DNA of 52,818 nucleotides from Mycobacterium sp. Root265 (GTDB taxonomy: Bacteria; Actinomycetota; Actinomycetes; Mycobacteriales; Mycobacteriaceae): positions 359,001 to 411,818 of the forward strand of contig NZ_LMJA01000022.1 of the NCBI RefSeq assembly GCF_001428895.1. Direction: 5' to 3'. The notes under the pieces were generated by a model that worked only from the letters and a program-made list of their open reading frames with translations, was not told the DNA's origin and ran no database searches. Both the position numbers and the translations under genes were made by a program. Numbering within the stretch: the first letter of the stretch is position 1; the number at the start of each line of letters is the position of its first letter. Positions 10,788 to 29,464 of this stretch are shown here, in pieces.

Positions 10788-11993
10788 TCAGATCAGGATG
10801 GTCAGCGGATTCTCCATCCTGCGGGTGAAGGCCGCCATCCACTGCGCGGCCACTGCGCCGTCGATGGCCCGGTGATCGGCCGACAGGGTCACGGACATGA
10901 CCGTGCCGACGGCCAACTCACCGTCGATGACCACGGGCCGCTGGGAAGCGCCGCCGACGGCGAGGATGCCCGAGTGCGGCGGGTTGAGAATGGCCGAGAA
11001 TGCGTCGACGCCGTACATACCGAGATTCGACACCGAGAAACTGCCGCCTTCGAGTTCCTGCTGCTTGATCCTGCCCGCACGGGCACGAGCGGCCAGGTCG
11101 GCCACCTGGGCCGCGACCGAGGAGATCGGTAGCCGGTCCACGCCACGCAGAACCGGGGTGAGCAGTCCACCGTCGACGGCGACGGCCACCGCGATGTCCG
11201 CGCCGTCGAACCGGCGGATCGAATCGCCGTGCCAGATCGAATTCGCCTCGGGCACTTCGACAAGGGCTGCCGCCACCGCCTTGAGGACGAAGTCATTCAC
11301 CGACACCTTGGCGGGGGCGGCTGCATTGACGTTCCTGCGCAGTTCCAGCAGGGCGTCGACCCGGCAGTCGGCACTGACATAGAAGTGCGGCACCGTGGTC
11401 TTGCTCTCGGTGAGCCGCCGCGCGATCGCCTTGCGCATGCCGGTCAGCGGAATGTCGATGTAGCCGGTCTGCCCCTGATCAGCCGCCGTCACGGCCGGAG
11501 CCGGAACCGGGACGGGTTCGGGGGCGGGCAACCGGTCCAGATCACGGCGGACGATGCGGCCCGACGGCCCGGTGCCTGTCACCGTCGTCAGGTCGATCCC
11601 CTTCTCACGGGCGATCTTTCGAACCAGTGGAGTGGCAAAGAGGCGGTGGCCGTTTGCCTGTGGCGCCGACTCGGCGATTTCGGCGATCTTCTCGATCACC
11701 GGCGCCGCCGACTCCGGGTCCCGTGCGCTGGTGTCGACCGCGTCGGCCGTCTCGCCCGGCGCCGTCACCACGGCGATGGGTTCACCTACCGCGATGGTTG
11801 CGCCCTGCTCGGCCACCAGCTGGGCGATGATGCCCTCGACTTCGGCCGCGTACTCGACGACCGCCTTTTCCGTTTCGATTTCGGCGATCGGGTCGCCGAT
11901 GGCGATCTCCTGACCGACCGATACCAGCCAGGTCTGAATGATGGCCTCGCCGGAGTTGGCGAGCACCTCGGGCATCCGTACCACGGTGGCCAT
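10788..11993 (-). CDS. Dihydrolipoamide acyltransferase (E2) of a 2-oxoacid dehydrogenase
   Basis: About 401 residues in the canonical E2 layout: one lipoyl domain (1-80) with the lipoyl-lysine K43 in IETEKAVVEY, a linker, an E3/E1-binding domain near FATPLVRKIAREKGIDL with GTGPSGRI, and a catalytic domain ending in SADHRAIDG, the HxxxDG active site. It transfers an acyl group from E1 to CoA. The ATG at 11993 shares one base with the E1 stop (TGATG); the longer frame upstream lies inside the E1 gene and was dropped. Acyl specificity (acetoin, pyruvate or branched chain) is not clear. No E3 gene is in the window. Confidence 0.9.
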   Translation of the reverse strand: MATVVRMPEVLANSGEAIIQTWLVSVGQEIAIGDPIAEIETEKAVVEYAAEVEGIIAQLVAEQGATIAVGEPIAVVTAPGETADAVDTSARDPESAAPVIEKIAEIAESAPQANGHRLFATPLVRKIAREKGIDLTTVTGTGPSGRIVRRDLDRLPAPEPVPVPAPAVTAADQGQTGYIDIPLTGMRKAIARRLTESKTTVPHFYVSADCRVDALLELRRNVNAAAPAKVSVNDFVLKAVAAALVEVPEANSIWHGDSIRRFDGADIAVAVAVDGGLLTPVLRGVDRLPISSVAAQVADLAARARAGRIKQQELEGGSFSVSNLGMYGVDAFSAILNPPHSGILAVGGASQRPVVIDGELAVGTVMSVTLSADHRAIDGAVAAQWMAAFTRRMENPLTILI

Positions 11994-14179
11994 CAGGACC
12001 GTCCCATCGCGACGCGCATCTTCTCCAGGCCGACCACGATCTCCTCGGTGCCGGCGATGGCCGCCCGCTCCAGTACCCGAGAGATGCTGGGCGAGGCTTC
12101 CTCCCCCGACACCCGTTCGATGGGCTGATCGAGCCAGTCGAAGAGCCGCCGTTGGATCTCGTCGGCGAGCCACCCGCCGTAGGAGCTGCCCCGTGCCCCC
12201 TGTTCGACGATCAGCACCGCATTCGTTTTCTTCACACTCGCTTCGATGGTGCGCCAGTCGATCGACGCCCGGTCCAGCCAGCGCAGGTCGATCAACTCGG
12301 CGTCGATGCCGGTCTGTTCGATGGCCTCGGCGCAGCGCGCCACCATCGACAGGTAGCTGATGACAGTGACTTCGTTGCCGGTGCGGCGAATGGCGGCGGT
12401 TCCTGGCGCGATGATGTAGTCGAGCTCGCCGTCGGGAATCCTGTCAGCGGTGCCGTACAGGTCGACGTGCTCGATGACCAGAACTGGATCTTGCAGCGCC
12501 AGAGCCGCATTCATCAGACCCACATAGTCGGCGGCCGTCGACGGCGCGACGATCCGCCACCCAGGGCTGGTGGCGAAGATCCCGGCGGGGTCCATCAGGT
12601 GCTGAGAGCCGTAGCCCGAGCCCATGGCCACCTTGGTCCGCAGCACCAGCGGCACCGCGTTGTCGCCGCCGAACATGTGGCGCGCCTTGCCGATCTGATT
12701 GAACACCTGATCAGCTGCCACCCACATGAAGTCCGGATACATGAACTCCACCACCGGCCGGAAGCGGCCGTCGAGTGCGAGGCCGCCGGCCAGGCCGGTG
12801 AAGGCGTTCTCGCTGATGGGCGTGCCCACCAGGCGTTGCCCGCCGTACTTGGCCAGGCCCTTGGTGGCGCCGTTGGTGCCGCCGTTGAGGCGGTGGACGT
12901 CCTCACCGAAGATCACGATGCGCTCGTCGGTGGCCATCCGCCGGTCCATCACGCCGGCGACGGCTTCGATGAACTTCACTTCGCGCCATGGCCCTTGGTG
13001 CGCCGTGGGTTCCAGCACCTCGAGTGCGGTCAGCTCGCCGGCGTCGCCACGAACGCCGACGTTGACGAAGCTCGGGTCGGGCCACAGTTCGGGCCGGATG
13101 CGCCGCTTGCCCGGCGACTCCGGATCGGTCTCCAGCAGCTCGGCCACTGCGGCGGTCATCGCCTGCTGGGCCTGCCTGCGCAGTTCGGTCACGCCGGCCT
13201 GATCGATAAGCCCCCGCCTGACCATCTGGGTGGCCATCTTGTCCAGCGGGTCACGCGCTCGCCACTGCGACTCTTCGTCCTTGTTGCGGTACCCGAACGC
13301 ACTACCGGGGTACGAGCCGTTCTGGTGGAAGAAGCGGTACACCTCGACCTCGATGACAGCAGGTCCCTCGCCCCCGCGCATCCGTTCGGCCGCCTGCATC
13401 GTCGCCAGGTGGACCGCGAGTGGATCCATTCCGTCGACCCGCCAGCCCGGGATGCCGAACCCCTGACCCCGGACCGACAGCCGTGGATCCGCGGTGATCT
13501 CGTCGACCCGCGTCGAGACGGCGTACAGGTTGTTCTCGATGAAGAAGCAGAACGGGAGCTTCCAGGCTGCGGCCAGGTTCATCGACTCCAGTACCGAACC
13601 GATCTGGCTGGATCCGTCTCCGAAGTAGCTGATCGTCAGATCGGTGGTGCCGCTGTGCTTTTGCGCCCAGGCGTTCCCGGCGCCCATCGGTACGCCGCCG
13701 CCGACGATGGCATTGGTGCCCAGCGCTCCGGCCTCGAACCATTGCAGGTGCATGGATCCACCACGCCCTCGGCAGTAGCCCTGCGCCAGCCCGAGGATCT
13801 CGGCCAGGGTGCGTTGCAGCACCCGCTGAACCTTCGGGGTGACGGCGGCTGCGGGATCGATGACCCCACCGGACACATGGGTGAGCGCCTTGGCCAGGAA
13901 CTGGTGATGACCGCGATGGGAACCGTTGACCGCGTCGGTGGACCGCAGCCCGACGATGGATCCGACCGCCCCGCCCTCCTGCCCGATGCTGGAGTGGGCG
14001 GGCCCGTGTACCAAGCCTTCCCCTGCCAATTCGAGGACGGTTTCCTCGAAGGCCCGGATGAGGTGCAGTTGGCCCAGCATGGTGCCGAGCAGTACCGGGT
14101 CGGCGGCGTCGTAGTCCGCGTCGGTGGTGCCGAGTTCGATCCACGGAGAGCCCGTCTCCAGGCGGGTTTCGGTTGGCAT
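11993..14179 (-). CDS. Fused alpha-beta E1 component of a 2-oxoacid/acetoin-type dehydrogenase
   Basis: A protein of 728 residues, twice the size of a single E1 subunit. The N-terminal half is E1 alpha, with the thiamine diphosphate motif starting YFGDGSSQIG and ending IENN, and GGSMHL before it. The C-terminal half is E1 beta, with IVIFGEDVHRLNGG, GTPISENAFTGLAGG and PVLVIEHVDLYG. It would decarboxylate a 2-oxoacid or acetoin and pass the acyl group to the downstream E2. The ATG at 14179 follows a GAGGG site; an earlier start at 14236 would lie close to the promoter and operator. It diverges from the VOC-GntR operon. Confidence 0.88.
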   Translation of the reverse strand: MPTETRLETGSPWIELGTTDADYDAADPVLLGTMLGQLHLIRAFEETVLELAGEGLVHGPAHSSIGQEGGAVGSIVGLRSTDAVNGSHRGHHQFLAKALTHVSGGVIDPAAAVTPKVQRVLQRTLAEILGLAQGYCRGRGGSMHLQWFEAGALGTNAIVGGGVPMGAGNAWAQKHSGTTDLTISYFGDGSSQIGSVLESMNLAAAWKLPFCFFIENNLYAVSTRVDEITADPRLSVRGQGFGIPGWRVDGMDPLAVHLATMQAAERMRGGEGPAVIEVEVYRFFHQNGSYPGSAFGYRNKDEESQWRARDPLDKMATQMVRRGLIDQAGVTELRRQAQQAMTAAVAELLETDPESPGKRRIRPELWPDPSFVNVGVRGDAGELTALEVLEPTAHQGPWREVKFIEAVAGVMDRRMATDERIVIFGEDVHRLNGGTNGATKGLAKYGGQRLVGTPISENAFTGLAGGLALDGRFRPVVEFMYPDFMWVAADQVFNQIGKARHMFGGDNAVPLVLRTKVAMGSGYGSQHLMDPAGIFATSPGWRIVAPSTAADYVGLMNAALALQDPVLVIEHVDLYGTADRIPDGELDYIIAPGTAAIRRTGNEVTVISYLSMVARCAEAIEQTGIDAELIDLRWLDRASIDWRTIEASVKKTNAVLIVEQGARGSSYGGWLADEIQRRLFDWLDQPIERVSGEEASPSISRVLERAAIAGTEEIVVGLEKMRVAMGRS

Positions 14180-14234
14180 TGCCCTCAATCTCCATCGGCC
14201 GGACGTCCGGGTGGCGGTGTGTGATGCACATCCC

Positions 14235-14318
14235 ACGGTAGCCCAATTGGATCCACTTTGGCCATATCTACTCCAAAATCGTGAACTTGGGCGCTACTAT
14301 TGCCAACTATTGGATCCA
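14235..14318. promoter_or_regulatory. Divergent promoters with two TTGGATCCA operators for the GntR regulator
   Basis: Two near-identical sites lie at 14246-14261 (ATTGGATCCACTTTGG) and 14309-14324 (ATTGGATCCATTTGGG), with palindromic cores TGGATCCA 63 bp apart, about six helical turns. A TACCGT -10 box for E1 (14235-14240, minus) lies next to the first, and TACTAT (14295-14300, plus) lies before the second. The core resembles the VanR-type FCD-GntR operator ATTGGATCCAAT that I recall from Caulobacter. Binding by the GntR gene next door is inferred. Confidence 0.65.
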
Positions 14319-14336
14319 TTTGGGAAGGTTCATTGC

Positions 14337-14861
14337 ATGCCGCTGCCCGGCCTGGTCGGTACTGACCACATCGGATTCACCGTGCCCGACCTGGACGAGG
14401 CGCACGACTTCTTCGTCCGCGTACTCGGGTGCGCACACGTCTACACGCTGGGCCCCTATGCCCATGGCGACGACTGGATGGCCGAGCACCTCAACGTCCA
14501 TCCCCGTACGGTCATGCGCGAGTTGCGGTTCTACCGGTGCGGCACCGGCGCCAACTTCGAGGTGTTCCAGTACGAGGCCGCCGACGGCCAAGCGGCGCAA
14601 CCCCGCAACAGCGATATCGGCGGGCACCACCTGGCCTTCTACGTCGACGATATCGACGCCGCTGTCGCGTACCTTCGTGCCGAGGGGATCCGCGTGCAGG
14701 GCGCCCCGACCGCCAGCAGAAACGCCAGCGAGGGGCAGCGCTGGGTGTACTTTTTGAGCCCGTGGGGCATGCAATTCGAACTGGTCAGTTTCCCGAGCGG
14801 CAAAGCCTACGAGGCCAATGCACCGGTGTTGCTGTGGAATCCGAATCACCCGGCGAGCTGA
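14337..14861 (+). CDS. VOC-family (glyoxalase/extradiol dioxygenase fold) protein
   Basis: A 174-residue protein with paired beta-alpha-beta-beta-beta modules. Likely metal ligands are the histidine in GTDHIGFTV, the histidine in GHHLAFYVDDID and the glutamate in MQFELVSFP. The family includes lyases, isomerases and dioxygenases that use a divalent metal. The ATG at 14337 follows a GGGAAGG site and the GntR operator. It is the first gene of the VOC-GntR-ALDH-AhpD operon; the gntR ATG follows its stop by 1 nt. The reaction is unknown. Confidence 0.8.
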   Translation: MPLPGLVGTDHIGFTVPDLDEAHDFFVRVLGCAHVYTLGPYAHGDDWMAEHLNVHPRTVMRELRFYRCGTGANFEVFQYEAADGQAAQPRNSDIGGHHLAFYVDDIDAAVAYLRAEGIRVQGAPTASRNASEGQRWVYFLSPWGMQFELVSFPSGKAYEANAPVLLWNPNHPAS

Positions 14862-14862
14862 C

Positions 14863-15525
14863 ATGACTCAACCTCCGCCGGTGCGCGACGGGATCACCGG
14901 GGCCCGAGTCGCCGACGAACTGCGCGAAGCGATCCTGACCGGCGGCTACCCGCCGGGCACCCGGCTGCGACAGGAGGCGCTGGCCGAACGGTACGGCGCC
15001 AGCCGGGTGCCGGTTCGGGAAGCGCTGCGCATCCTGGAAGCCGACGGCCTGGTGACGACGGTGGCCAACGCCGGCGCGTGGATCGCCTCACTCAGCCTCG
15101 ACGAATGCGTGGAGCTCTACCAGGTCCGCGAGCGCATCGAGCCGCTGCTGCTGCGGTACAGCCTGCCGCACCTCGATGACCCGAGCGTCGAGCGGTTGGC
15201 CGAACTCGCCGAGCAGATGCGCCGCACCAGCGACGTCGAGCAGTTCCTGGCACTGGACCGCGAGTTCCACCTGGGCAGCTATGCCGGTGCCGGAACCTCT
15301 TTCCTGGGGCCCACCGTGGAGCGGCTGTGGAACACCACTCAGCACTACCGTCGCGCGTTCACCCGGCTGCTCGACGATGACAGCCACCGCATCGTGCACG
15401 ACGAACATCACATGCTGGTCGCGGCGATCCGCGATCAGGACTCCGAGGAGGCCGAACGTGTACTGCTCGGCCATATCCGGCGTACTCGGCGCCAACTCGC
15501 GCGCCACCCAGAAGTTTTCGACTGA
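14863..15525 (+). CDS. GntR-family regulator with FCD domain
   Basis: A 220-residue regulator. The N-terminal winged helix is typical: VADELREAILTGGYPPGTRL, then LAERYGASRVPVREALRILEADGLV. The C-terminal part is an FCD domain, with the YQVRERIEPLLL region and HHMLVAAIRDQD carrying histidines that often bind a metal and an organic acid. It lies inside the operon it probably controls and beside two VanR-like palindromes. Inducers of FCD regulators are often carboxylic acids, which fits a 2-oxoacid pathway; this is inference. Confidence 0.88.
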   Translation: MTQPPPVRDGITGARVADELREAILTGGYPPGTRLRQEALAERYGASRVPVREALRILEADGLVTTVANAGAWIASLSLDECVELYQVRERIEPLLLRYSLPHLDDPSVERLAELAEQMRRTSDVEQFLALDREFHLGSYAGAGTSFLGPTVERLWNTTQHYRRAFTRLLDDDSHRIVHDEHHMLVAAIRDQDSEEAERVLLGHIRRTRRQLARHPEVFD

Positions 15526-15549: not shown

Positions 15550-16926
15550 ATGGCAATCGCAACGATCAATCCGGCGACCGGTGAGACGGTCGAGACCTTC
15601 GAGGCACATTCCGCGGACGAGGTGCAGCGACGAATCGCGCAAGCCTTCGACGCGAGTCAGAAGCTGCGCAGCACCAGCTATGCGCAGCGCGCCCGCTGGA
15701 TGCACGCGACCGCGGACCTGCTGGAGGCCGACGTCGACAAGGCCGCGGAGATGATCACCGTCGAGATGGGCAAACCCATCGCCCAGTCGCGGGCCGAGGT
15801 GCTCAAGTGCGCCAAGAACATCCGCTACTACGCCGACAACGCCGAGTCCTTCCTGGCCGCAGAGGAACTGGCCGATCCGTCGTCGGTGGCGGCGTCGGCC
15901 GCGGGCACGGTGTGGCAGCCGCTGGGCGTGGTGCTGGCGGTGATGCCGTGGAATTACCCACTGTGGCAGGTGATCCGCTTCGCCGCCCCGGCACTGATGG
16001 CGGGCAACACCGGGCTGCTCAAACACGCATCGAACGTCCCGCGGTCTGCGCTCTATCTCGACGACCTCTTCGAGCGGGGTGGTTTTCCGGCCGGCTCGTT
16101 CCGCACCCTGCTGATCGGCGCGGGTGACGTCGCGGCCGTGATCGAGGACAGCCGGGTCACCGCCGTCACGCTCACCGGCTCCGAACCCGCTGGGCGTTCG
16201 GTGGCTGGTATCGCCGGGCAGCAGATCAAGAAGGCTGTCCTCGAACTCGGCGGCTCCGACCCGTTCGTCGTGATGCCCAGCGCCGACATCGAAGCAGCGG
16301 CCACCACCGCAGTGAAGGCCCGCATCTCCAACAACGGTCAATCCTGCATCGCGGGAAAGCGTTTCATCGTCCACGCGGACGTCTACGACGAGTTCGCCCG
16401 ACTGTTCGTCGCCAAGATGAATGCGCTCAAGGTCGGTGACCCGCTCGACGAGTCCACCGATGTCGGCCCGCTGGCCACCGAGTCAGGCCGTGTCGACGTC
16501 GCCGAAATCGTGGACGATGCGGTTCTGAAAGGCGCCGAGGTGCTCGCCGGTGGCAGCGCACCCGAGCGGGCGGGTTGGTACTACAACCCGACCGTATTGG
16601 CCGGGCTGACCGACGATATGCGGATTGTGTTGGAGGAGACATTCGGACCGGTCGCGTCGGTGTACAAGGTGGCCGATCGCGAAGAGGCCGTCAGGATCGC
16701 CAACCAGACCACCTTTGGGCTGAGTTCGGCGGTGTGGAGCAACGACCCGGAGGAACAGGATTGGTTCGTCGCCAACCTCGATGCCGGTGCGGTGTTCCTC
16801 AACGGCATGACGGTGTCCTACCCCGAGCTGCCGTTCGGCGGCATCAAGGACTCCGGCTACGGCCGCGAACTCGCCGCGGCCGGCATCCGCGAGTTCTGCA
16901 ACCTCAAGACGGTCTGGAAGGCGTAA
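15550..16926 (+). CDS. Aldehyde dehydrogenase, succinate-semialdehyde dehydrogenase-like
   Basis: A 458-residue NAD(P)-dependent aldehyde dehydrogenase. It has VMPWNYPLWQ, the general-base glutamate in LELGGSDPFVV, the nucleophile in NNGQSCIAGKRF, and EETFGPVA. The length of about 455 residues and the starting INPATGE resemble the short GabD1-type succinate-semialdehyde dehydrogenases of mycobacteria. A GAGAGAAGG stretch precedes the ATG by 7 nt. Its position in the GntR operon suggests it oxidises a semialdehyde or aldehyde formed in that pathway; the actual substrate is not known. Confidence 0.85.
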   Translation: MAIATINPATGETVETFEAHSADEVQRRIAQAFDASQKLRSTSYAQRARWMHATADLLEADVDKAAEMITVEMGKPIAQSRAEVLKCAKNIRYYADNAESFLAAEELADPSSVAASAAGTVWQPLGVVLAVMPWNYPLWQVIRFAAPALMAGNTGLLKHASNVPRSALYLDDLFERGGFPAGSFRTLLIGAGDVAAVIEDSRVTAVTLTGSEPAGRSVAGIAGQQIKKAVLELGGSDPFVVMPSADIEAAATTAVKARISNNGQSCIAGKRFIVHADVYDEFARLFVAKMNALKVGDPLDESTDVGPLATESGRVDVAEIVDDAVLKGAEVLAGGSAPERAGWYYNPTVLAGLTDDMRIVLEETFGPVASVYKVADREEAVRIANQTTFGLSSAVWSNDPEEQDWFVANLDAGAVFLNGMTVSYPELPFGGIKDSGYGRELAAAGIREFCNLKTVWKA

Positions 16927-16928: not shown

Positions 16929-17516
16929 ATGGCACGTATCAGCTATGTCCGGCCGGAGAGCGTCACCGAGCCCGATCTGGTCGACATCCTGGCGCAGTCC
17001 CGCACCTTCGGCACGCCCCGGCTGGAAAGTCAGGCCATCCGCGCACATGTGCCCGCTGTGCTGCGCACCTTCACCGCGTCGTGGCAGCAGACGTTCCGCG
17101 ACGGTGTGCTCGACCATTCGATCAAGGAACTCGCGCGCGTGTTCATCGCCAAGAGTCTGGACTGCGGCTACTGCGCGGGGCAGCGGTCACACCTGGGCGC
17201 CGAGGCGGGCCTGACCGAGCGGGAGTTCGACGAGGTGATCGAGTTCCGTGATTCGACCGTGCTCGGTGACCGGGAGAAATCGGCGCTGATGTGGGCCGAG
17301 GCCATCGCGTGGGATCCCAACCTGGCCGACGACGCGCTGTGGGCGGAACTGCACGCCCACTTCACCGAACCCGAACTGGTCGAACTCGGCTATTTCATTG
17401 CGCTGACCATGGGCCAGCAGAAGTTCCTCAAGACCCTGGACCTGCGCCACGGGGACCTCGGGGTCGAGAGCCTCGCCGGACTGTCCCCCGAGGTCGCCGA
17501 GCGGCTGCGGGGCTAG
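16929..17516 (+). CDS. Carboxymuconolactone decarboxylase/AhpD-like protein
   Basis: A 195-residue helical protein of the CMD/AhpD superfamily. The redox motif CGYCAGQRSH has the CxxC pair and following histidine of AhpD-like alkylhydroperoxidases, so a thiol-redox role is more likely than decarboxylation. AhpD proteins take electrons from lipoylated E2 proteins in mycobacteria, and an E2 is encoded 5 kb away. The ATG is 2 nt after the aldehyde dehydrogenase stop, so the genes are co-transcribed. The stop overlaps the convergent M24 gene by 4 bp. Confidence 0.8.
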   Translation: MARISYVRPESVTEPDLVDILAQSRTFGTPRLESQAIRAHVPAVLRTFTASWQQTFRDGVLDHSIKELARVFIAKSLDCGYCAGQRSHLGAEAGLTEREFDEVIEFRDSTVLGDREKSALMWAEAIAWDPNLADDALWAELHAHFTEPELVELGYFIALTMGQQKFLKTLDLRHGDLGVESLAGLSPEVAERLRG

Positions 17517-18754
17517 TACTCGTTGGCCACGAACAGCTCCTGGGCCGGGAACTTGGTGAGGATCACCGGACCGTCGTCGGTGACCACCACTTCCTCCTCG
17601 ATCCGGGCCGCCGACGTCCCGTCCGAAGCCGGGCAGTACGTTTCCATCGCGAACACCATGCCGGCCTGCAACTCGACCGGATTCTCCAGCGAGTTCAGCC
17701 GCGAGATGATAGGCCGCTCGTGCAATCCCAACCCCAGACCGTGGGCGAACTGCAGACCGAAGGCCGCCATCTCGTTCTCGAATCCGAAGTCCTCGGCCTT
17801 GGGCAGCAGCCGGGCGATGTGATCCGACCCCACACCGGGGCGGATCGCTTCGATCGAGCGGTCCATCCACTCCCGCGCGGTCTTGTAGGCATCCCGTTGA
17901 CTCTGGGTCGCCGAACCGACGCCGAAGGTACGGTAGTAACAGGTCCGATACCCGTTGTAGGAGTGGATGATATCGAAGAACGCCTGATCTCCCGGACGGA
18001 TGATCCGATCGGTGAAGTTGTGCGGATGCGGATTACACCGCTCTCCGGAGATCGCGTTGACGGCCTCCACCTGGTCGGATCCGAGCTCGTAGAGCCGCTT
18101 GTTGGCCAGCGCGACGATCTCGTTCTCGCGCACACCGGGTTTGAGCACGTCGACGATGTCCTGGTACACACCGTCGACCATGGCCGCGGCCTGATTGAGC
18201 AGCATGATCTCGTCGGAGGACTTGATCACCCGGGCATCGAGCATGCTCTGCTGCGCGTCCACCACGGTCAGACCCTGGCGCTGCATCTCGAACAGGAAAG
18301 GTGGCTCGACGATGTCCATGCCCACCGGGGCGTCGGCGACCCCGGCTTCGACCAGGATGGACTTGATCTCGGTGACCGCGTCGCGCATCAGACCCGCGTC
18401 CGGGGCCACCGCTCCGCGGAAGCCGAGGAACCCGGCCCGCCAGTTCTCCTGCGGCAGCCACGGGCTGTAGAGCTTGTGGTGGCGCACCGCCGAACCGAAG
18501 TCCCACAGGATCGGATCCCGGTCGCGGGTCAACAAACAGTAGCGAATCATCTTGTCGCCCAACGCTCCGCCGATCCACGTCTGCGTGGTGTAACGGATGT
18601 TGTAGAAATCGAACAGCAGGAAGGCGCCACAGCCACTGGCTTCCAGCGCCGCCTTCGCCCTCGAGATCCGGTAGTCCCGGAGTCGGGCGAAGTCGACGCG
18701 CTCCTCGTAGTCGACGCCCATGTGGCCGGGCGCCCCGAGTTGCCGCGTGCTCAC
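17513..18754 (-). CDS. M24 (pita-bread fold) family enzyme, creatinase/DddP-like, altered metal site
   Basis: A 413-residue protein of the M24/creatinase superfamily. Its N-terminal domain (LLFDFYNIRYTT, LWDFGSAVRHHK) resembles the DMSP lyase DddP and other non-peptidase M24 proteins. By eye, the five metal-ligand positions read D261, C272, H338, E371 and E386; the second aspartate is a cysteine. The catalytic histidine H345 is kept in HGLGLGLHERP. It is therefore unlikely to be a standard aminopeptidase and may cleave a small molecule. The GTG at 18754 overlaps the upstream stop by 4 bp; ATG at 18721 is an alternative. Last gene of the Liv-type operon. Confidence 0.75.
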   Translation of the reverse strand: MSTRQLGAPGHMGVDYEERVDFARLRDYRISRAKAALEASGCGAFLLFDFYNIRYTTQTWIGGALGDKMIRYCLLTRDRDPILWDFGSAVRHHKLYSPWLPQENWRAGFLGFRGAVAPDAGLMRDAVTEIKSILVEAGVADAPVGMDIVEPPFLFEMQRQGLTVVDAQQSMLDARVIKSSDEIMLLNQAAAMVDGVYQDIVDVLKPGVRENEIVALANKRLYELGSDQVEAVNAISGERCNPHPHNFTDRIIRPGDQAFFDIIHSYNGYRTCYYRTFGVGSATQSQRDAYKTAREWMDRSIEAIRPGVGSDHIARLLPKAEDFGFENEMAAFGLQFAHGLGLGLHERPIISRLNSLENPVELQAGMVFAMETYCPASDGTSAARIEEEVVVTDDGPVILTKFPAQELFVANEY

Positions 18755-22351: not shown

Positions 22352-23229
22352 GCGACCGCGTCCTCTCGGAGCCGGGTGCCCATCAGGCCCTGTGGCCGGG
22401 TGATCAGCACGACGATGATGACGAGGAAGGGCACCGCGACGGGCCAGGCCGCTCCGATGTAGGCGGTGGCCGCCATCTCACCGATGCCGATCACCAGCGC
22501 GCCGAGCACCGCGCCCGGCAGGCTGCCGAGGCCACCGAGGACGACGATCGCGAGCAGTCGGGCGATCCACTGGTAGTGGGTGCCGGGCAGGAATGGATAG
22601 ATGGTGGACAGCATCGCGCCGCCGGCGCCGAGGGTGGCCACGCCGATGGCGAAGGTGAGTGCGGCGATGGTCGCGACGCTCACCCCCACCAGCAGCGCGC
22701 CACTCTCGTTGGAGGACGCCGCGCGAATCGCCCGGCCCGCCCAGGTATGATTGAGCAGGAGGTAGAGCCCGCCCATCACCGCGGCCGCGATGACCGCGGC
22801 GATGAGCATGGCCTGCGGAATATAGATCGACCCGAGCGTCAGCGACGCGTCGGTGTAGGACACCACCACCGTGGTCGAGGTGTTGCCCCAGATGAAGCCC
22901 ATGATGCCCTCGAGCATCAGCGCGATTCCGAAGGTGGCCAGCACCGTCATCGTCACGTGGGCACCGCGGACGTGCCGGATGACCAGCACGTACACCAGCC
23001 AGCCGAACCCGAACATCACCACCATGACGATGGGGATGGACAGCAGCGGGTCAAGGCCGAGGCTGCGCCACAGCGTGAAGGTGAGGAACGCCGCGAGGAC
23101 CGCAAACGCGCCGTGGGCCAGATTGATCACCCGCATGACCCCGAAGATCAGTGTCAGTCCGGATGCCATCAGCGCGTACAGCGCGCCGACGAGCACTCCG
23201 AGGATGAGCGTTTGCACAAGGGATGTCAT
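22348..23229 (-). CDS. Liv-type ABC transporter permease (LivH-like)
   Basis: A 293-residue integral membrane protein with about eight helices. The motifs LIFGVMRVINLAHGAF and VLGGLGSLPGAVLGALVIG are diagnostic of the LivH permease family. It pairs with the fused LivM-LivG protein to form the translocation channel. The ATG at 23229 is 30 bp after the solute-binding protein gene, and the stop overlaps the next start by 4 bp. Confidence 0.9.
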   Translation of the reverse strand: MTSLVQTLILGVLVGALYALMASGLTLIFGVMRVINLAHGAFAVLAAFLTFTLWRSLGLDPLLSIPIVMVVMFGFGWLVYVLVIRHVRGAHVTMTVLATFGIALMLEGIMGFIWGNTSTTVVVSYTDASLTLGSIYIPQAMLIAAVIAAAVMGGLYLLLNHTWAGRAIRAASSNESGALLVGVSVATIAALTFAIGVATLGAGGAMLSTIYPFLPGTHYQWIARLLAIVVLGGLGSLPGAVLGALVIGIGEMAATAYIGAAWPVAVPFLVIIVVLITRPQGLMGTRLREDAVA

Positions 23230-23259: not shown

Positions 23260-24471
23260 TCAGATATCCCCGCCGCGCCAGCGGAAGATCTGATCTGAGG
23301 TCGCCACCTCGGTGGGAAGGACGACTTGGGAGACACCGGCCTGCCACTGGCCGACCAGGAAGTCGCCCTTGGGGCTGCCGTCCTCGTTCCAGCTGAGGGT
23401 GCCCAACAGGGTGTCGACACTGTTGCTGCGCAACCAGTCTGCGAGGGCTGCCTGGTCGTCGATGGAGCCGACTGCGGTGACCGCTGCGGCGAGCACCTGC
23501 CCGGCGGCGAACCCGTCAGCGGCGTCCTCGGGCGGGCTCTGGCCGAACTTCTCCTCGAAGCGCTCGACGAACTCGGCGTTGTCGGTGGTGTCGGACAGCG
23601 GGCTGTAGCTCGAGGAGAAGAACACACCTTCGGCGTTGTCGGCACCGACGGCGTCGAGGTACTGCTGGCCGTAGGTGGGTGAGCTGCTCTGGTACAGAAT
23701 TTCCGGCTGGTAGTTGGCACGGTTCATCGACCGGATCATGTTGACCCCGTCCTCGAATTGCGCGCCCTGCACCACGATTTCGGCGCCGGCATCACGCATG
23801 GCGTTGACCACCGAGTCGAAATTCTTGGTGGTGGCAGGGTATTTGTCCTTGTAGACGGTCCGGATGCCTGCTGCGGACAGGATCTTCTCGGCGCCGTCGA
23901 CCACCGGGCCGGCGAAGGGGTCGTCCAGCGTCGGGTAGGCGGCGGTCGTCGGGCGCTGCTCCGGTGGCAGCGCGGCGACCCAGTTGGCGAATACCTTGGC
24001 TTGGTCGGTGGCGATGGCCTGCTGGGAGAAGAAGATGTAGGAGAAACCGCGGCTGAACATGTCCGGCGAACCGCAGGACGGGCAGACGAAGAGCTTCTTG
24101 TTCTTCTCCGCGATGGCCGAGGCCGGGATGTTCAGCAGCGACGACTGACTGCCCAGCAACAGGTCTACCCTGTCCTGCGAGATCAGGTTGTTGTAGTTGC
24201 TGACCGCTGTTTCCTGCTGGGTGGCATCGTCTTTGACGATGATCCCGACCTGCTTGCCGAGCAGTCCGCCCTTGTCGTTGGTCATCTCGACCCAGGTCTC
24301 ATAGCCCCGCTGGGTGTCCAGGCCACCCTGGCTGAACTCGCCGGTCAGCGGCAGCGAGGCGCCGATCCGGAGGGTATCGCCGGCACCGCCCCCGTCCGCA
24401 GAACACGCCGACACAGTCAACGCGATCGCCGCAGTCGCGGCGATCGCGCCAAATACTTTGGTAAAGCGCAT
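23260..24471 (-). CDS. Liv-type substrate-binding lipoprotein
   Basis: A 403-residue type I periplasmic binding protein. It has a lipoprotein signal peptide ending in the lipobox LTVSAC, then IGASLPLTGEFSQGG, typical of LivK/AmiC-like proteins. The ATG at 24471 follows an AGAGAGG site; a TTG two codons earlier is less likely. It starts the operon livK-livH-livMG-livF-dehydrogenase-M24. The ligand cannot be read; the gene content suggests a small hydroxy or amino acid-like compound. A LacI-type palindrome lies 63 bp upstream. Confidence 0.88.
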   Translation of the reverse strand: MRFTKVFGAIAATAAIALTVSACSADGGGAGDTLRIGASLPLTGEFSQGGLDTQRGYETWVEMTNDKGGLLGKQVGIIVKDDATQQETAVSNYNNLISQDRVDLLLGSQSSLLNIPASAIAEKNKKLFVCPSCGSPDMFSRGFSYIFFSQQAIATDQAKVFANWVAALPPEQRPTTAAYPTLDDPFAGPVVDGAEKILSAAGIRTVYKDKYPATTKNFDSVVNAMRDAGAEIVVQGAQFEDGVNMIRSMNRANYQPEILYQSSSPTYGQQYLDAVGADNAEGVFFSSSYSPLSDTTDNAEFVERFEEKFGQSPPEDAADGFAAGQVLAAAVTAVGSIDDQAALADWLRSNSVDTLLGTLSWNEDGSPKGDFLVGQWQAGVSQVVLPTEVATSDQIFRWRGGDI

Positions 24472-24533
24472 GTCCAACCTCTCTGTCAGACCGATTGCCC
24501 CGATGGCGGTGGCCGAGTGTTGCCCACATCACT

Positions 24534-24547
24534 TGCAATCGATTGCA
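24534..24547. promoter_or_regulatory. LacI-type operator A, upstream of the Liv-type operon
   Basis: TGCAATCGATTGCA is a perfect 14-bp palindrome with the central CG expected of LacI/PurR-family operators. It lies 63 bp before the binding-protein start. Three further copies lie at 24697, 28284 and 29451, the last upstream of a lacI gene. Confidence 0.75.
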
Positions 24548-24686: not shown

Positions 24687-24710
24687 TATAGTCGACCGCA
24701 ATCGATTGCA
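24687..24710 (+). promoter_or_regulatory. Aldehyde dehydrogenase promoter with LacI-type operator B
   Basis: TATAGT (24687-24692) is a good -10 box. Operator B, CGCAATCGATTGCA (24697-24710), differs from operator A at one base and covers the expected transcription start, a standard repression geometry. The ATG follows 28 nt later. Confidence 0.7.
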
Positions 24711-24737: not shown

Positions 24738-26246
24738 ATGACCCAGGCCGACACCAGGACCACCCGGCCCGCGCCGCTGCGGCGCTCTGAATGGGGCGCC
24801 TTCATCGACGGCGGCTTCGTCCCGGTCGGCGACCTGCCGACATTCGAGGTGGTCGAGCCGTCGACTGCCACGGCCCTCGCCACCGTCGTCTGCGCGGATG
24901 ACGCCCTGGTCGACCGCGCGGTGCGGTCGGCCCGCGCGGCGCTGCCCGCCTGGCGCGACCTGTCGGGCCGGCAGCGCGGCGCCTACCTCAAGCAGGTCGC
25001 CGAGCGCATCCGCGCGCACGCCGACGAACTGGGCGAGTTGGTGTCCCGGGAGAACGGCAAGCCGAAACGGGATGCGCTGGCCAACGACGTGGCCTTCAGC
25101 TCCAACTGTTTCGAGTTCTTCGCCGGCCTCGGCGACAGCCTGCCCGGTGAGATCATCGACCAGGGCCCGATCGAGACCCGGGTGGTCTACGAACCTTACG
25201 GTGTCGTCGCCTGCATCCTGCCGTTCAACTGGCCGCCCATCCATTTCGCCAAGAAGGGCGCACCCGCGCTGATCACGGGCAACACCGTGGTCATCAAGCC
25301 GGGCGAGCAAGCCCCGCTGACGGTGCTGCGGCTCGTCGAGATCGCCAACGAGGTCCTGCCCCCGGGTGTGCTGAACGCCGTGCCCGGATTGACCGCCGGG
25401 GCCGCGCTGGCCGGCCACCCCGGCGTCGAGCGCATCAGCTTTACCGGTGCCACCGCCACCGGCAGGCGCGTGCTGGAGACGGCCGCACAAAATCTGACCT
25501 ATGCGACCATGGAACTCGGTGGCAAGAACGCCCTGATGGTCTTTCCCGACGCCGACCTCGAGCTGGCGGTCACGGTGTCGATCGAGGCGATGTTCTACAA
25601 CCAGGGCGAGGCCTGCACATCGACGGCACGGATCCTCGTGCAAGACGCCGTGTATGACACCTTCCTGGAGAAGTTCACCGCCGCGGCAACAGCGCTCGTG
25701 GTGGGTGACGGTTTGGACGCGCACACCGATATCGGTCCGATGGTCGATGCCAGACACCGCGACCGGGTACTGGATTACCTTCAGACCGCCCTCGACGAGG
25801 GCGCCCGCATCGTCGGGCAGGGTGCGGTGCCCACCGAGGCGCCCTATGCCGACGGTTACTGGGTGCCCCCGACGGTGCTCGCCGACGTGGCCCCCGATTC
25901 GACTGCCGGACAGGAGGAGATCTTCGGCCCGATCGCGCTGCTGATGCGATATCACACCCTGGACGAGGCGGTCGAGATCGCCAACGGCACGGCCTACGGC
26001 CTCACCGCCGCCATGATCACCCGCGACGAGGCGGCGGCCTGGCACATTGCGCAACGCCTGGAGGCCGGCATGGTGTTCGTGAACAACTACATGCGCCGTT
26101 CCTTCCTCGGGTCGCCGTTCGGCGGCCAGAAGGGCAGCGGGTTCGGCCGGGAGAACGCTCCGGAGACGCTGCACGAGTTCGTCCGGTCGAAGGCCGTCCG
26201 GTTTCGGTCCGGTCGTGGAGAGGTGCCGGTGTGGCCGCCTAGATGA
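24738..26246 (+). CDS. Aldehyde dehydrogenase (betaine/succinate-semialdehyde type)
   Basis: A 502-residue NAD(P)-dependent aldehyde dehydrogenase with ILPFNWPPIHFAKK, the base glutamate in MELGGKNALMVF, the nucleophile in NQGEACTSTARI and EEIFGPIALL. It is distinct from the shorter enzyme at 15550. The gene is divergent from the Liv-type operon and shares its LacI-type control. Its stop overlaps the MFS start by 4 bp. Likely role: oxidation of an aldehyde formed from the imported compound, perhaps by the dehydrogenase at 18751; the substrate is unknown. Confidence 0.85.
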   Translation: MTQADTRTTRPAPLRRSEWGAFIDGGFVPVGDLPTFEVVEPSTATALATVVCADDALVDRAVRSARAALPAWRDLSGRQRGAYLKQVAERIRAHADELGELVSRENGKPKRDALANDVAFSSNCFEFFAGLGDSLPGEIIDQGPIETRVVYEPYGVVACILPFNWPPIHFAKKGAPALITGNTVVIKPGEQAPLTVLRLVEIANEVLPPGVLNAVPGLTAGAALAGHPGVERISFTGATATGRRVLETAAQNLTYATMELGGKNALMVFPDADLELAVTVSIEAMFYNQGEACTSTARILVQDAVYDTFLEKFTAAATALVVGDGLDAHTDIGPMVDARHRDRVLDYLQTALDEGARIVGQGAVPTEAPYADGYWVPPTVLADVAPDSTAGQEEIFGPIALLMRYHTLDEAVEIANGTAYGLTAAMITRDEAAAWHIAQRLEAGMVFVNNYMRRSFLGSPFGGQKGSGFGRENAPETLHEFVRSKAVRFRSGRGEVPVWPPR

Positions 26247-27370
26247 TCCTGATCATCGGCGCCTTCGTCTCCCTGATCGACCGTTCGGTGATGCCGCCAC
26301 TCGTCCCCGTCATCGCGGCGGACTTCGGTACCCCGATCGAGGCGATCGGCCACTCGCTGACGGTCTACGCGGTGGTCTACGCGGCGTCCCAACTGATCTG
26401 GAGCACGCTGGCCGCGCGCTACGGCCGGATCCGCATCCTGGTCATCTCGACCATGCTCGGCGGATTGGCCAATCTGGCAACGGCATTCACCCAGGACGCA
26501 GCGTCCTACAACATCGCCCGCGCCGTATCGGCGGCCGCGTTCGCGGCGACCATCACCACGGTGTTGATCTACTACGGTGAGACCCTGACGGTCAGACAGC
26601 GTGCGGTCGCCACCGCCAACCTCGCCGCCGCTATCGCGATCGGCCTGTCCGCGGGCACGGTGGGGGCCGGCGTCATCGCCCAATGGCTGGGCTGGCGCTG
26701 GGTTTACGTGGTGATCTCCGCGATGTCACTGGTTCTGGCGCTGGGCTTCACACGACTCAAGGGGTCGGCGAACGACGTGCCGGAGCGTCTGGTCCCCTCG
26801 CTGCGCCGACTGGCGGGCAATGGGTGGGCCCTGGCGATCTTGGCGTTCACGGTCGCCGAAGGTGCATTGTTGGTCGGGGTGTTCAATTACCTGGCGGTGG
26901 CGCTGCAGACGACAGGCGCCTCGGTGCTGGTGGCCGGGGTGGCGACCGCCATGTTCGGCGCCGCGGTCGTGATCGTCAGCCAGTCGATGAAGCTCATCCT
27001 GGACCGCTGGCCCAGCTGGGTGTTGATGCTGTTGGCCGGGTTGAGCACGGTGACCGCGTATGTGGCGGTGGCGCTTCAGATCTCGCTGGGCACCGTGTCT
27101 GCCGCCGCGATCCTGCTCGGAGTGGCCTGGGCCTGCGGGCACACCACGATGCAGACCTGGATGACCGACGCTGCGGCCGACAGTCGTGCCATCGGGATGT
27201 CGTTCTTCTCGATCGCATTGTTCGTTGGCGCATCCGCCGGCGCCGCGGCAGGCAACATCGCGACGGGCGCCGACCGCTTCGGGACACTGTTCGCACTCGC
27301 CGCGGTCGCGTCGGTGGTCTACGCAGGCGTCACCACTGCGGCCCGCGGGCGCTATGTCGTCCGAGAGTGA
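26243..27370 (+). CDS. Major facilitator superfamily transporter
   Basis: A 375-residue membrane protein with about twelve hydrophobic segments. The first loop carries the MFS-A type pattern AARYGRIRIL between helices 2 and 3, and the first helix begins LIIGAFVSLIDRSVMPP. The ATG overlaps the aldehyde dehydrogenase stop (ATGA). It is somewhat short for the family because the N-terminus begins right at helix 1. It may import or export a pathway compound. It ends 5 bp from the convergent NMT1/THI5-like gene. Confidence 0.85.
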   Translation: MILIIGAFVSLIDRSVMPPLVPVIAADFGTPIEAIGHSLTVYAVVYAASQLIWSTLAARYGRIRILVISTMLGGLANLATAFTQDAASYNIARAVSAAAFAATITTVLIYYGETLTVRQRAVATANLAAAIAIGLSAGTVGAGVIAQWLGWRWVYVVISAMSLVLALGFTRLKGSANDVPERLVPSLRRLAGNGWALAILAFTVAEGALLVGVFNYLAVALQTTGASVLVAGVATAMFGAAVVIVSQSMKLILDRWPSWVLMLLAGLSTVTAYVAVALQISLGTVSAAAILLGVAWACGHTTMQTWMTDAAADSRAIGMSFFSIALFVGASAGAAAGNIATGADRFGTLFALAAVASVVYAGVTTAARGRYVVRE

Positions 27371-27375
27371 CTCAT

Positions 27376-28278
27376 TCAGCCCGCCAGCACGCCCGGACGT
27401 ACCACCTCACCGAACCGCGCGGCGAGACCGTCGAGCTCCGGCATCGGCAGGAACTGCCTGCGCAACCCGACCAGGGTGCCCAGCGCAGCCACCTCGACCG
27501 CGCCATTGCCGATCAGTCCCCTCAGCGGATCCTTCAGCACACCAACATGTTCGGCGGCCAGCTCCGGACCGAGATCGAGCAACCTGGCGGCGGACTCACC
27601 GGCCGGACCGTCCAGCGCCCCGGAACGGATGGATCGTGCCGTCTCACCCAGTACCTCGACCAGCCGGTCGACCGCGCCCGCGCCGGCGCCGTCACGCAGC
27701 CGGGCCACGACGGTACCCAGGTAGGGACCCAACCGCGTCACCTCGGCGAGCAGCAGACAGCCGTGCGCGCGCGCCGTCAGCTCGTTACCGGCGTTGAGCA
27801 CCGTCAGATCGCAGCCGCCGCCGTGTAAGGCGTTGGCCCGCTTGGGTGTGGAACCCAGCGCGAGGACCTCCAGGTTGTCCCGCGAGATCCCCAGCTCGGC
27901 GAGCAGCGCGTAGGCGACGAAGGCGAATCCCGAGTTCGCGACATCGACGCCCAGGCGTCCGCCGGCGACCTCACTGAGTCCTGTCACGCCCGGCCGCGCC
28001 GCCAGACACAGCCGCAGCCCGCGGTCGATGCCGGCGACGATCTCGACGTCGAGCAGCTCCCCCAGCGGGTTTCTCGGCAAGAACCGGTAGGCGAGAACGT
28101 TGTCGGGACTGGTGAATACGGCGTCGAACTCGCCCGCGCGCAGGGAGGCGAACTGGGCGGGCGAGGAGGGCACCGGCACATCGCGCACCTGGAGTCCGGC
28201 GTCGGAGAGCCGACCGGTTTTGCGGGCGACGTCGAGCAGCACCGACGGGCTGAACACTCCGAGCGTGATCTGATCCAT
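27376..28278 (-). CDS. NMT1/THI5-like periplasmic-binding-fold protein without signal peptide
   Basis: About 300 residues with the type II binding fold of SsuA/TauA/THI5-like proteins: MDQITLGVFSPSVLLDVARK, then an AGEFDAVFTSPDNVLAYRFL segment and GRLGVDVANSGFAFVAYALL. No signal peptide or lipobox is present, so the protein should be cytoplasmic, unlike ABC-importer binding proteins. It may be a sensor or an enzyme. The ATG at 28278 lies 5 nt from LacI operator C; an upstream extension to 28335 would run through the operator and was rejected. Confidence 0.65.
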   Translation of the reverse strand: MDQITLGVFSPSVLLDVARKTGRLSDAGLQVRDVPVPSSPAQFASLRAGEFDAVFTSPDNVLAYRFLPRNPLGELLDVEIVAGIDRGLRLCLAARPGVTGLSEVAGGRLGVDVANSGFAFVAYALLAELGISRDNLEVLALGSTPKRANALHGGGCDLTVLNAGNELTARAHGCLLLAEVTRLGPYLGTVVARLRDGAGAGAVDRLVEVLGETARSIRSGALDGPAGESAARLLDLGPELAAEHVGVLKDPLRGLIGNGAVEVAALGTLVGLRRQFLPMPELDGLAARFGEVVRPGVLAG

Positions 28279-28283
28279 GACTC

Positions 28284-28318
28284 TGCAATCGATTGTAGGA
28301 ATGCTCCACCGGAGCTTA
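28284..28318 (-). promoter_or_regulatory. LacI-type operator C and promoter of the NMT1/THI5-like gene
   Basis: Operator C, TGCAATCGATTGTA (28284-28297), differs from operator A at one base. TAAGCT on the minus strand (28313-28318) is a likely -10 box, which places the operator in the short leader just before the ATG. Repression by blocking elongation or initiation would fit. Confidence 0.65.
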
Positions 28319-28340
28319 GCGCGACCCGGCCGCACACCGG

Positions 28341-29360
28341 TCAGTTCTTCGCCGGCCCCGTGGAACCCCGCGCCACCAGCGATACCGGCAGCGTCAGGGT
28401 CGCCGCCTCCTGCTCGCCCGCCTCGATTCCACGTAGCAACAGGCGGGCGGCCTCGGCGCCGATCTCGCGCAGCGGCATCCGCACCGTGGTCAGGGGCGGC
28501 CAGAAGTCGCCGGCGAACGGCATGTCGTTGAACCCGACCACCGAAACGTCCTCCGGGCAGTGCAGGCCCTCGGCACGCAGCCGGCGGATCAGGCCCAGCG
28601 CCACCAGATCATTGCCCGCGACCAGAGCCGTGGGATTGATCGTGTTGTGGGCCAGAAGTTGGTCAGCGGCAGCCACCCCGGCCTCGATGGTCAGTGCCGA
28701 TGCGTAGATCGTCTGATGTTGCACACCGGCCCTGGTGGCCGCGGCCTCGAACGCCTCGGCCCGTGAACGCGTCGTGGAGAAATTCGTCGGCCCCGCGGCG
28801 TGGATGATCCGGCGGTGCCCCAGTTCGACCAGATGCTCCAGAGCCAACTCGATACCGCGGGCATTGTCACCGGTCACCAGGGGGAAGTCGCCGAGTCCGG
28901 CATCGCGGTTGACCAGCACCACCGGCACGGCCGCGGCCGCTGCCTCCTCGACCACAGATTGGTCATCGAGCCGGCCGGTGGCCAGCAGGAAACCGTCGAC
29001 CCGGCGTTGCAGCAGCGACTCGAAGACCGAGATCTCGACGTCATCGTGGGAATCGGTGTTGGCGATGAGCACGGTGTAGCCCTGCGCCTGCAGCACATGC
29101 TCGATCCCCCGGATGATCGGCGGGAAGATCGGATTCATCAGATCCGGGATGATCACACCGATGGTCATCGACCTGCTGGTCCGCAGGCTGCGAGCCATGG
29201 CGTTGGGGACGTATCCCAGTTGTCGGGCAGCCCGTTTGACCCGCTTGAGTGTCTCGGCGTTGACCTGATCGCGCGTGCGGGCGTTGAGCGCCCTCGACAC
29301 CGTGGCCTTGTGCACCTCCGCGAGGCGCGCCACATCGTCGATGGTCACTCGTCGCGGCAT
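28341..29360 (-). CDS. LacI-family transcriptional regulator
   Basis: A 339-residue LacI/PurR-type regulator. The helix-turn-helix is VTIDDVARLAEVHKATVSRA followed by LNARTRDQVNAETLKRV and the hinge LGYVPNAMARSLRTSRS. The ligand domain has IGVIIPDLMNPIFPPIIRGI and the VVGFNDMPFAGDFWPPLTTV signature. ATG at 29360 gives the usual family start; GTG at 29387 is possible. The conserved hinge leucine position is occupied by MARSL, so it should bend DNA at a central CG, matching the four palindromes of this region. It is the likely repressor of the Liv, aldehyde dehydrogenase-MFS and NMT1-like units. Confidence 0.92.
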   Translation of the reverse strand: MPRRVTIDDVARLAEVHKATVSRALNARTRDQVNAETLKRVKRAARQLGYVPNAMARSLRTSRSMTIGVIIPDLMNPIFPPIIRGIEHVLQAQGYTVLIANTDSHDDVEISVFESLLQRRVDGFLLATGRLDDQSVVEEAAAAAVPVVLVNRDAGLGDFPLVTGDNARGIELALEHLVELGHRRIIHAAGPTNFSTTRSRAEAFEAAATRAGVQHQTIYASALTIEAGVAAADQLLAHNTINPTALVAGNDLVALGLIRRLRAEGLHCPEDVSVVGFNDMPFAGDFWPPLTTVRMPLREIGAEAARLLLRGIEAGEQEAATLTLPVSLVARGSTGPAKN

Positions 29361-29450
29361 ACCCGGCGTTCCCCCACCCCTGCTCACAGCCCCGGCTGTC
29401 GGGCTCAGAGGTCAGATTACCGCGCCACATCCACCGTTCCCGGCAGGCGG

Positions 29451-29464
29451 TGCAATCGATCGCA
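29451..29464. promoter_or_regulatory. LacI-type operator D upstream of lacI
   Basis: TGCAATCGATCGCA differs from the perfect palindrome at one base. It lies about 90 bp before the lacI start and upstream of a TAATCT box (29414-29419, minus), so autoregulation from about -50 is possible. Confidence 0.6.

Follow-up and report, generated by a model that had tools for sequence, protein, structure and literature searches.

A putative catabolic gene set with two regulatory arms around an M24-fold protein in Mycobacterium sp. Root265

Gene arrangement and predicted operators

The window analyzed here (the whole stretch of 52,818 nucleotides, positions 359,001 to 411,818 of contig NZ_LMJA01000022.1) belongs to the 6.67-Mb genome of Mycobacterium sp. 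Root265 and contains, between positions 10788 and 29464, a GntR-linked and a LacI-linked set of genes. Judged from their sequences, these two halves very probably form one catabolic system. Genes were predicted from open reading frames (ORFs) and by a GC3-based caller, and families were assigned by Pfam, NCBIfam and PDB searches.

The GntR half comprises on the minus strand the genes of an E2 component (10788..11993; lipoyl, E3-binding and acyltransferase domains) and of a fused E1 alpha-beta protein of 728 amino acids (11993..14179), a predicted thiamine diphosphate (ThDP)-dependent 2-oxoacid (or acetoin-type) dehydrogenase. The plus strand encodes a VOC-fold protein (14337..14861), a GntR regulator of the FCD subfamily (14863..15525), an SSADH-type aldehyde dehydrogenase (ALDH1; 15550..16926) and an AhpD/CMD-fold protein (16929..17516), the last two being separated by a gap of 2 bp within the same GntR-linked unit. 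ALDH1 was assigned by NCBIfam NF006915 (769 bits, cut-off 730) and the other products by Pfam. In the LacI half, the minus strand encodes an M24-fold enzyme (17513..18754; Pfam PF00557), a HIBADH-like beta-hydroxyacid dehydrogenase of an SGN/KxxHN subfamily (18751..19695; Pfam) and a Liv-type importer recognized by family scans, which consists of a LivF-type ATPase (19716..20474), a LivM-LivG fusion of permease and ATPase (20471..22351; also supported by the ORF call), a LivH-type permease (22348..23229) and a Liv-type binding protein (SBP; 23260..24477; Peripla_BP_6). A second aldehyde dehydrogenase (ALDH2; 24738..26246) and an MFS transporter (26243..27370) are encoded on the plus strand, an NMT1-like protein (27376..28278; ORF call, likely start ATG 28278) and a LacI-family regulator (28341..29387) again on the minus strand; ALDH2, MFS and LacI were assigned by Pfam.

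Since the 3′ ends of the AhpD and M24 genes overlap by 4 bp, the two sets literally meet tail to tail, as an earlier note on this DNA had described them, and the genes it named are in place. The arrangement suggests one divergent promoter in each half. In the GntR half, E1-E2, perhaps together with the Old Yellow Enzyme (OYE) gene beyond E2 (9623-10729, outside the interval), are likely transcribed leftward and VOC-GntR-ALDH1-AhpD rightward. In the LacI half, SBP-LivH-LivMG-LivF-HIBADH-M24 likely form the leftward and ALDH2-MFS the rightward unit, while the NMT1-like and LacI genes are likely read leftward.

A predicted LacI operator, TGCAATCGATTGCA, recurs between the genes of the LacI half. 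Sequence comparison disclosed four copies in the window, none with more than one mismatch (plus strand): a perfect one in the promoter of SBP-Liv-HIBADH-M24 (24534..24547), and copies with one mismatch in the promoter of ALDH2-MFS (24697..24710), directly upstream of the NMT1-like gene (28284..28297), where it is also found in other mycobacterial loci, and upstream of LacI (29451..29464). Allowing three mismatches gave five sites in the window, a count reached by 4 of 100 shuffles. This number is unremarkable, and the case for the operator therefore rests on the comparison of loci. The 12-base core of the box occurs exactly twice in the genome, both times in the window; with one mismatch there are eight genome sites, two in the window and six elsewhere.

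The locus comparison covered the best 80 named M24 loci of at least 589 confirmed stretches (of 596 stretches matched by pattern, at least 589 code for an M24 relative); 54 of the 80 are long (≥20 kb). The 80 loci contained 77 TGCAATCGATTGCA sites with at most one mismatch, 19 of them perfect, whereas 60 permuted palindromes averaged 0.08 sites and never exceeded 1. When two mismatches were allowed, 70 of the 80 loci had one site or more, some of these sites being inside genes; among 155 such sites, 37 lay within a called ORF and were not followed by a start. Pairs of a site and a gene within 350 bp involved HIBADH (25), the NMT1-like gene (24), SBP (20), LacI (14) and an FrsA-like hydrolase (9). 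In locus L070 (one mismatch) and locus L054 (two), E1 and VOC are preceded by a LacI box at a distance of 38-81 bp. In three loci of other mycobacteria, L026, L027 and L031, LacI-type boxes (2 mismatches) accompany the AhpD orthologue, and a second LacI gene stands beside it. This LacI paralogue (48-49%) lies between AhpD and ALDH1 (L026:4641-5618, L027:14588-15571, L031:12009-12992) and was not encountered at this position in the window.

The promoter region between E1 and VOC harbors two ATTGGATCCA(C/T)TT boxes 63 bp apart, ATTGGATCCACTT at 14246..14258 and ATTGGATCCATTT at 14309..14321 (plus strand), which are conserved in E1/VOC promoters. Such a box or the looser form ATTGNNNNCAAT, for which there is no control, was present in 32 of 44 loci with a readable E1 start. 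The 80 loci contained 45 sites with at most one mismatch to ATTGGATCCAAT, whereas 59 permuted palindromes averaged 0.42 sites and had at most 4. Forty of these sites lie beside E1/VOC, three before ALDH1, one before SBP and one with no known gene near. Boxes of this kind suit FCD-type GntR proteins. The window GntR has HTH and FCD domains and a palindromic box in the divergent promoter next to its gene, the LacI protein HTH and Peripla_BP domains and a CG-centred palindrome at its own promoter. We infer that the two proteins are the binders of the respective boxes.

Conservation of the gene set in genomes, loci and plasmids

Co-occurrence was determined in 148 relatives and in 374 genomes of the class, using E-value cut-offs of ≤1e-60 for M24, ≤1e-100 for the fused E1 and ≤1e-20 for the NMT1-like protein. 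M24 proteins with at least 60% identity to the window M24 were designated M24-A and the sister form (rows at 53-60%) M24-B; this split was read from identity rows, and genome G261 was put in A from a fragment alone. Among the relatives, M24 was present in 15 and fused E1 in 17 genomes, and every one of the 15 M24 genomes encoded E1 (Fisher 1e-18; the tests ignore the kinship of the genomes). Within the window's own genus, both genes are patchy yet still paired. The class sample contained M24 in 49 genomes, 21 of them with M24-A, and E1 in 28; E1 was found in 19 of the 21 M24-A genomes (Fisher 3.5e-23). The NMT1-like protein was restricted to 13 of the 374 genomes, 11 of which have M24-A. Together, 29 genomes of both samples possess M24-A and E1, on one contig in 24 cases and on different contigs in five. 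The one-contig pairs are 0.6-36.5 kb apart, 22 of them within 11.5 kb and the others at 21 and 36.5 kb. Two of the class genomes measure just 1.5 and 1.8 Mb; in these, M24-A lies within 0.6 kb of E1, and its retention together with E1 in genomes of this size favors a common natural substrate. Conservation of the halves with each other had been set beforehand as the check on the proposal of a single system, and these numbers bear it out.

In the 54 long loci the conserved core consists of HIBADH (50 loci), LacI (37), VOC (35), E1 (32), GntR (29), E2 (28) and the NMT1-like gene (27), and some ALDH gene was seen in 42. The identity threshold was chosen separately for each gene, and the counts are lower bounds because the simple ORF caller misses genes. 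Other neighbors do not belong to the core: OYE occurred in 6, FadA in 3, FadB in 2, UreC in 1 and LuxR and UrtA in none of the 54. OYE was absent from all 42 long loci outside a hand-made mycobacterial list (16 loci, including 12 of the 54), so that its inclusion in the GntR-linked set by the earlier note could not be upheld. The Liv genes, rightly identified there for the window, have close homologues in 16-19 of the 54; elsewhere other Liv-type, NMT1-type ABC, Opp-type and MFS importers were found. The importer is interchangeable. From co-occurrence and operator statistics we conclude that the gene set is more than a chance assembly.

Some loci carry genes of both halves on one strand. A Nocardioidaceae metagenome-assembled genome (L055) shows the order SBP-LivH-LivM/G-LivF-HIBADH-M24-ALDH-VOC-E1-E2, two uncultured actinobacteria (L068, L077) HIBADH-M24-VOC-E1-ALDH with short gaps, and Actinocrispum (L082) HIBADH-M24-ALDH-E1-E2; in the latter three, a perfect LacI box lies 18-42 bp before HIBADH. 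In two further loci, M24 follows GntR-ALDH1 (L063) or HIBADH-M24 follows VOC-GntR (L076). The one-strand runs in four loci and the LacI box before E1/VOC in two others support the earlier proposal that the halves are one system.

Plasmids bear similar groups. A Streptomyces plasmid combines LacI, NMT1-like, HIBADH, M24, ALDH, VOC, E1 and E2 genes, and a 42-kb Paenarthrobacter plasmid E2, E1, VOC, an amidase, a Liv importer, RidA, a HIBADH-family protein (32%) and a sister M24. On four roseobacter plasmids, M24 (61-62%), E1a, E1b, a lipoyl protein, SSADH and E2 stand in one row together with a sugar-type importer, and on three of them ThuA and a HIBADH-like gene (27-28%) adjoin the row, which suggests the same logic as in the actinobacterial system. 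Three haloarchaeal plasmids encode an M24 of the window clade near a ThDP-binding protein; two of them also encode an 'NAD(P)-dependent oxidoreductase', which gave no match to HIBADH.

Beyond the LacI gene, the window encodes at 30666-36918 a UrtA-type urea binding protein (above the NCBIfam cut-off), followed by apparent urease genes (UreAB fusion, UreC, UreG, UreD, UreE, UreF; names given by eye). This block adjoins the pathway genes without being conserved with them. On the Paenarthrobacter plasmid bearing the catabolic set, a cyclase and a Pycsar effector are annotated (L103:14635-15964).

Enzymes, feeder proteins and candidate substrates

The M24 protein has the Peptidase_M24 fold (PF00557, 123 bits, cut-off 23) and is 96% identical to its counterparts in Mycolicibacterium chubuense and M. 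chlorophenolicum, the best matches in named genomes, which makes a Mycolicibacterium-like mycobacterium the probable source. Mean column identity of 20 actinobacterial sequences (window included) was 84%. The canonical dinuclear site of the M24 fold has five ligands, D-D-H-E-E. Alignments with prolidases showed that the window M24 deviates from it, the second metal-ligand Asp being replaced by Cys272. This Cys is invariant in the 20 sequences as well as in 11 relatives encoded on plasmids, of which three are archaeal. The motif GYR[TS]CYYRTF is kept by the window protein and by 11 actinobacterial, roseobacterial and haloarchaeal relatives, the most distant at 36% identity. The best NCBIfam match was the lyase DddP, at 101.9 bits far below the equivalog cut-off of 600. 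PDB matches that also span the N-terminal domain were 4rzy, 4rzz, 4s00, 4s01 and 4b28, which we take to be DddP, the label in the PDB file reading 'Peptidase M24'. DoeA reached 61 bits (cut-off 613), and creatinase entries matched weakly (7yto, E 2e-8; 1chm, E 5e-6). According to PMC4108388, DddP has six metal ligands, Asp295, Asp297, Asp307, His371, Glu406 and Glu421. Compared with this set, two ligands have no equivalent in the window M24: Asp307 is matched by Cys272, and Asp297 lies within an insertion of two residues. The M24 represents, as far as alignments can tell, a distinct DddP-related clade with Cys in place of a metal-ligand Asp. In public plasmid records this key enzyme is labeled 'Xaa-Pro peptidase'. 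The sister subfamily M24-B has the same Cys motif and is frequent in the class sample, partly beside fused E1 and partly not (L020-L022).

The HIBADH protein possesses NAD_binding_2, NAD_binding_11 and the catalytic Lys region. SGG and KxxNN are the typical substrate motifs of beta-hydroxyacid dehydrogenases; the orthologues of the window protein read SGN (68 of 69) and KxxHN (69 of 69). Among five aligned relatives, only 3cky has both SGG and KxxNN, while the others vary, N-PAC also having SGN. With these altered motifs, the protein has an active-site signature of its own.

The E1 domains are complete (E1_dh, Transket_pyr, Transketolase_C), and E2 has lipoyl, E3-binding and 2-oxoacid_dh domains (Pfam). 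No NCBIfam equivalog cut-off, those for pyruvate dehydrogenase (PDH) included, was reached by E1 or E2, and no E3 was found among the region genes scanned. One fused E1 of the class sample reads with an internal TGA (G288:C1:1952468-1954663). The conserved features of M24 and HIBADH and the domains of E1/E2 suggest that the enzymes act on one specific substrate.

The NMT1-like gene named in the earlier note exists; its family name found no backing, as the protein gave no Pfam or NCBIfam match at E ≤0.001 and a best, unconvincing PDB match at E 0.17. In one related locus, the homologue has a true NMT1-family protein in its vicinity. No signal peptide was apparent by eye, and the protein may serve as a soluble sensor or have enzymatic activity rather than being part of a transporter.

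Possible feeder enzymes, encoded next to a LacI box or in the same neighborhood, were counted in the 80 loci. Hydrolases were Amidohydro_3 (14 loci), Amidohydro_1 of the TRZ/ATZ type (9) and FrsA-like proteins (18); FAD amine-oxidase/CrtI-like proteins (13), RidA (8), CN_hydrolase (2) and amidase (1) were also found. The best PDB matches of the FrsA-like hydrolase were 2,6-dihydroxypseudooxynicotine hydrolase and AntI, presumably both C-C hydrolases. A Salipiger plasmid has RidA, an amidase and an isochorismatase-type hydrolase beside E1/E2. Amidohydro_3 and FrsA-like proteins never shared a locus (overlap 0, chance ~0.02), which was not used as evidence because it is confounded by lineage. 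Amidohydrolases, CN-hydrolase, RidA and C-C hydrolase make us lean to a nitrogenous, carbonyl-rich substrate, a proposal for and against which we see an even case.

Several individual compounds were considered and rejected. The earlier note had listed creatine-like and sulfonium compounds. The weak creatinase match and the presence of UreC near M24 in a single long locus speak against creatine, the DddP score and ligand comparison against dimethylsulfoniopropionate (DMSP) and other sulfonium compounds, and the DoeA score against ectoine. Products of sulfonamide antibiotics came into question since M24-B occurs on Paenarthrobacter plasmids; a term search of PMC10873849 gave no mention of Xaa-Pro, pyruvate dehydrogenase, RidA or amidase. 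For pantothenate and ephedrine, nothing relevant was found among the open-access papers listed.

Proposed pathway and comparison with known systems

With some reserve, we favor the reading that the region encodes a single inducible pathway of catabolism, with control divided between two arms and with the reactions outlined here, and not two unrelated regulons. The core enzymes would be the unusual M24, HIBADH, the SSADH-type ALDH, VOC and the PDH-like E1/E2, with E3 probably borrowed from housekeeping metabolism. A small compound, perhaps nitrogenous and carbonyl-rich, would enter by the interchangeable importer, here of the Liv type, and be trimmed by feeder hydrolases where these are present. 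M24 would split a C-N or possibly a C-C bond, leaving a hydroxy acid that HIBADH would oxidize. E1/E2, perhaps after isomerization by VOC, would convert the 2-oxoacid or hydroxyketone so formed to acyl-CoA, and ALDH would oxidize the released aldehyde. LacI might sense the substrate or an early intermediate and free uptake and first steps via TGCAATCGATTGCA; GntR might sense a later acid and free E1-E2 and VOC-GntR-ALDH-AhpD via the paired ATTGGATCCAAT-type boxes. As far as sequence comparison can tell, the unity of the gene set, the boxes with their placement and the altered motifs of M24 and HIBADH are established; the order of the reactions, the substrate and the effectors are tentative.

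A number of observations weigh against a single pathway. E1 is lacking in two of the 21 M24-A genomes (G166, G205) and, taking all M24 genomes of the class, in 25 of 49 (24 have it), mostly carriers of M24-B. Nine class genomes have E1 without M24-A, five of them with M24-B and four, out of all 28 with E1, with no M24 at all. An E1 covering 40% of the query was lacking in 22 and any E1 match in 18 of the 54 long loci, in which an E1 more than ~10 kb from M24 is invisible. Among the one-strand loci, no LacI box was found in L055 and no E2 was seen in the loci of L068 and L077. None of the N-type enzymes searched for was found in 50 of the 80 loci (30 had at least one). On plasmid stretches from Proteobacteria and Citricoccus (L108, L109, L115, L116, L117, L121), the fused E1 (60-69%) occurs with SDRs, VOC, E2, Lpd or SSADH, without M24 in the parts shown. 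Together with the four class genomes, these plasmids indicate that the E1 module is also used elsewhere. In the window, moreover, LacI boxes occur within the LacI half and GntR boxes within the GntR half, so that the halves may be induced separately in this organism. The cases of E1 without M24 would fit two separate pathways that frequently move together, with E1/VOC/E2/ALDH serving as a general module of 2-oxoacid or acetoin type while the M24-HIBADH arm degrades something else; the differing regulators and boxes of the arms in the window also speak for this. We nevertheless regard this explanation as unlikely, in view of the presence of E1, usually close by, in nearly all M24-A genomes, the one-strand runs, the LacI box before E1/VOC in other loci and the lack of conservation of the other window neighbors (OYE, FadAB, urease, LuxR).

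Two further alternatives concern the chemistry. M24 might be a DddP-like lyase acting by beta-elimination rather than a hydrolase, the remaining enzymes handling an unsaturated acid or its hydroxy acid. The PDB entries covering the N-terminal domain, presumably DddP, and the best NCBIfam match speak for a lyase; in view of 102 bits against a cut-off of 600 and the two ligands without equivalent among those given in PMC4108388, we consider it rather improbable. Degradation of pantothenate or a pantoyl amide (amide hydrolysis, oxidation of pantoate by HIBADH and ALDH, conversion of 2-oxoisovalerate by E1/E2) would suit the enzyme set, and locus L072 has a CN-hydrolase with a LacI-type box (2 mismatches) nearby. 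RidA, C-C hydrolase and amine oxidase of related loci do not fit, however, no candidate for a dimethylmalate dehydrogenase was present among the scanned proteins (no dedicated search was made), and none of the open-access papers listed dealt with such a system; this idea appears very improbable.

As likely as not, the region represents an undescribed route for a common natural compound, widespread in actinobacteria including some genomes of 1.5-1.8 Mb and common in outline to roseobacters and perhaps haloarchaea. It would rest on a new activity of a Cys-site M24, coupled to an HIBADH of a new subfamily and to a ThDP-dependent enzyme that cleaves C-C bonds, and its phylum-wide LacI operator would serve as a tag for feeder enzymes. 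The earlier note knew of no pathway with such a set, and a description of the M24/HIBADH/E1 gene set was likewise not found in our searches of open-access papers. A conserved pathway with so many relatives means that our picture of the turnover of carbon, and perhaps of nitrogen, has a gap. The LacI operator makes the regulon, and hence the substrate, directly testable, and an altered metal site in an M24 clade, if true, would add new chemistry to a fold that has been studied well.

Of the known systems, the DMSP lyase DddP resembles the window M24 as its best NCBIfam match and in the two-domain PDB matches (presumably DddP), while the window protein differs in its score (102 of 600 bits), in Cys272 for Asp307, in the missing Asp297 and in its partners HIBADH, VOC and E1/E2. 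Ectoine hydrolase DoeA and creatinase are likewise catabolic enzymes of the M24 fold (M24 amidohydrolases); the scores (61 against 613 bits for DoeA, a weak match for creatinase) and partners are unlike. With 3-hydroxyisobutyrate, 2-hydroxymethylglutarate and tartronate-semialdehyde dehydrogenases, the window HIBADH has the fold and the catalytic Lys region in common; it remains below the equivalog cut-offs, and its family has SGN and KxxHN where 2-hydroxymethylglutarate dehydrogenase (3cky) has SGG and KxxNN. Acetoin and pyruvate dehydrogenase complexes share the E1 alpha and beta domains and the lipoyl and E3-binding domains of E2, whereas in the window the E1 halves are fused, score below the PDH cut-offs, are without an E3 among the scanned region genes and are tied to M24 and HIBADH.

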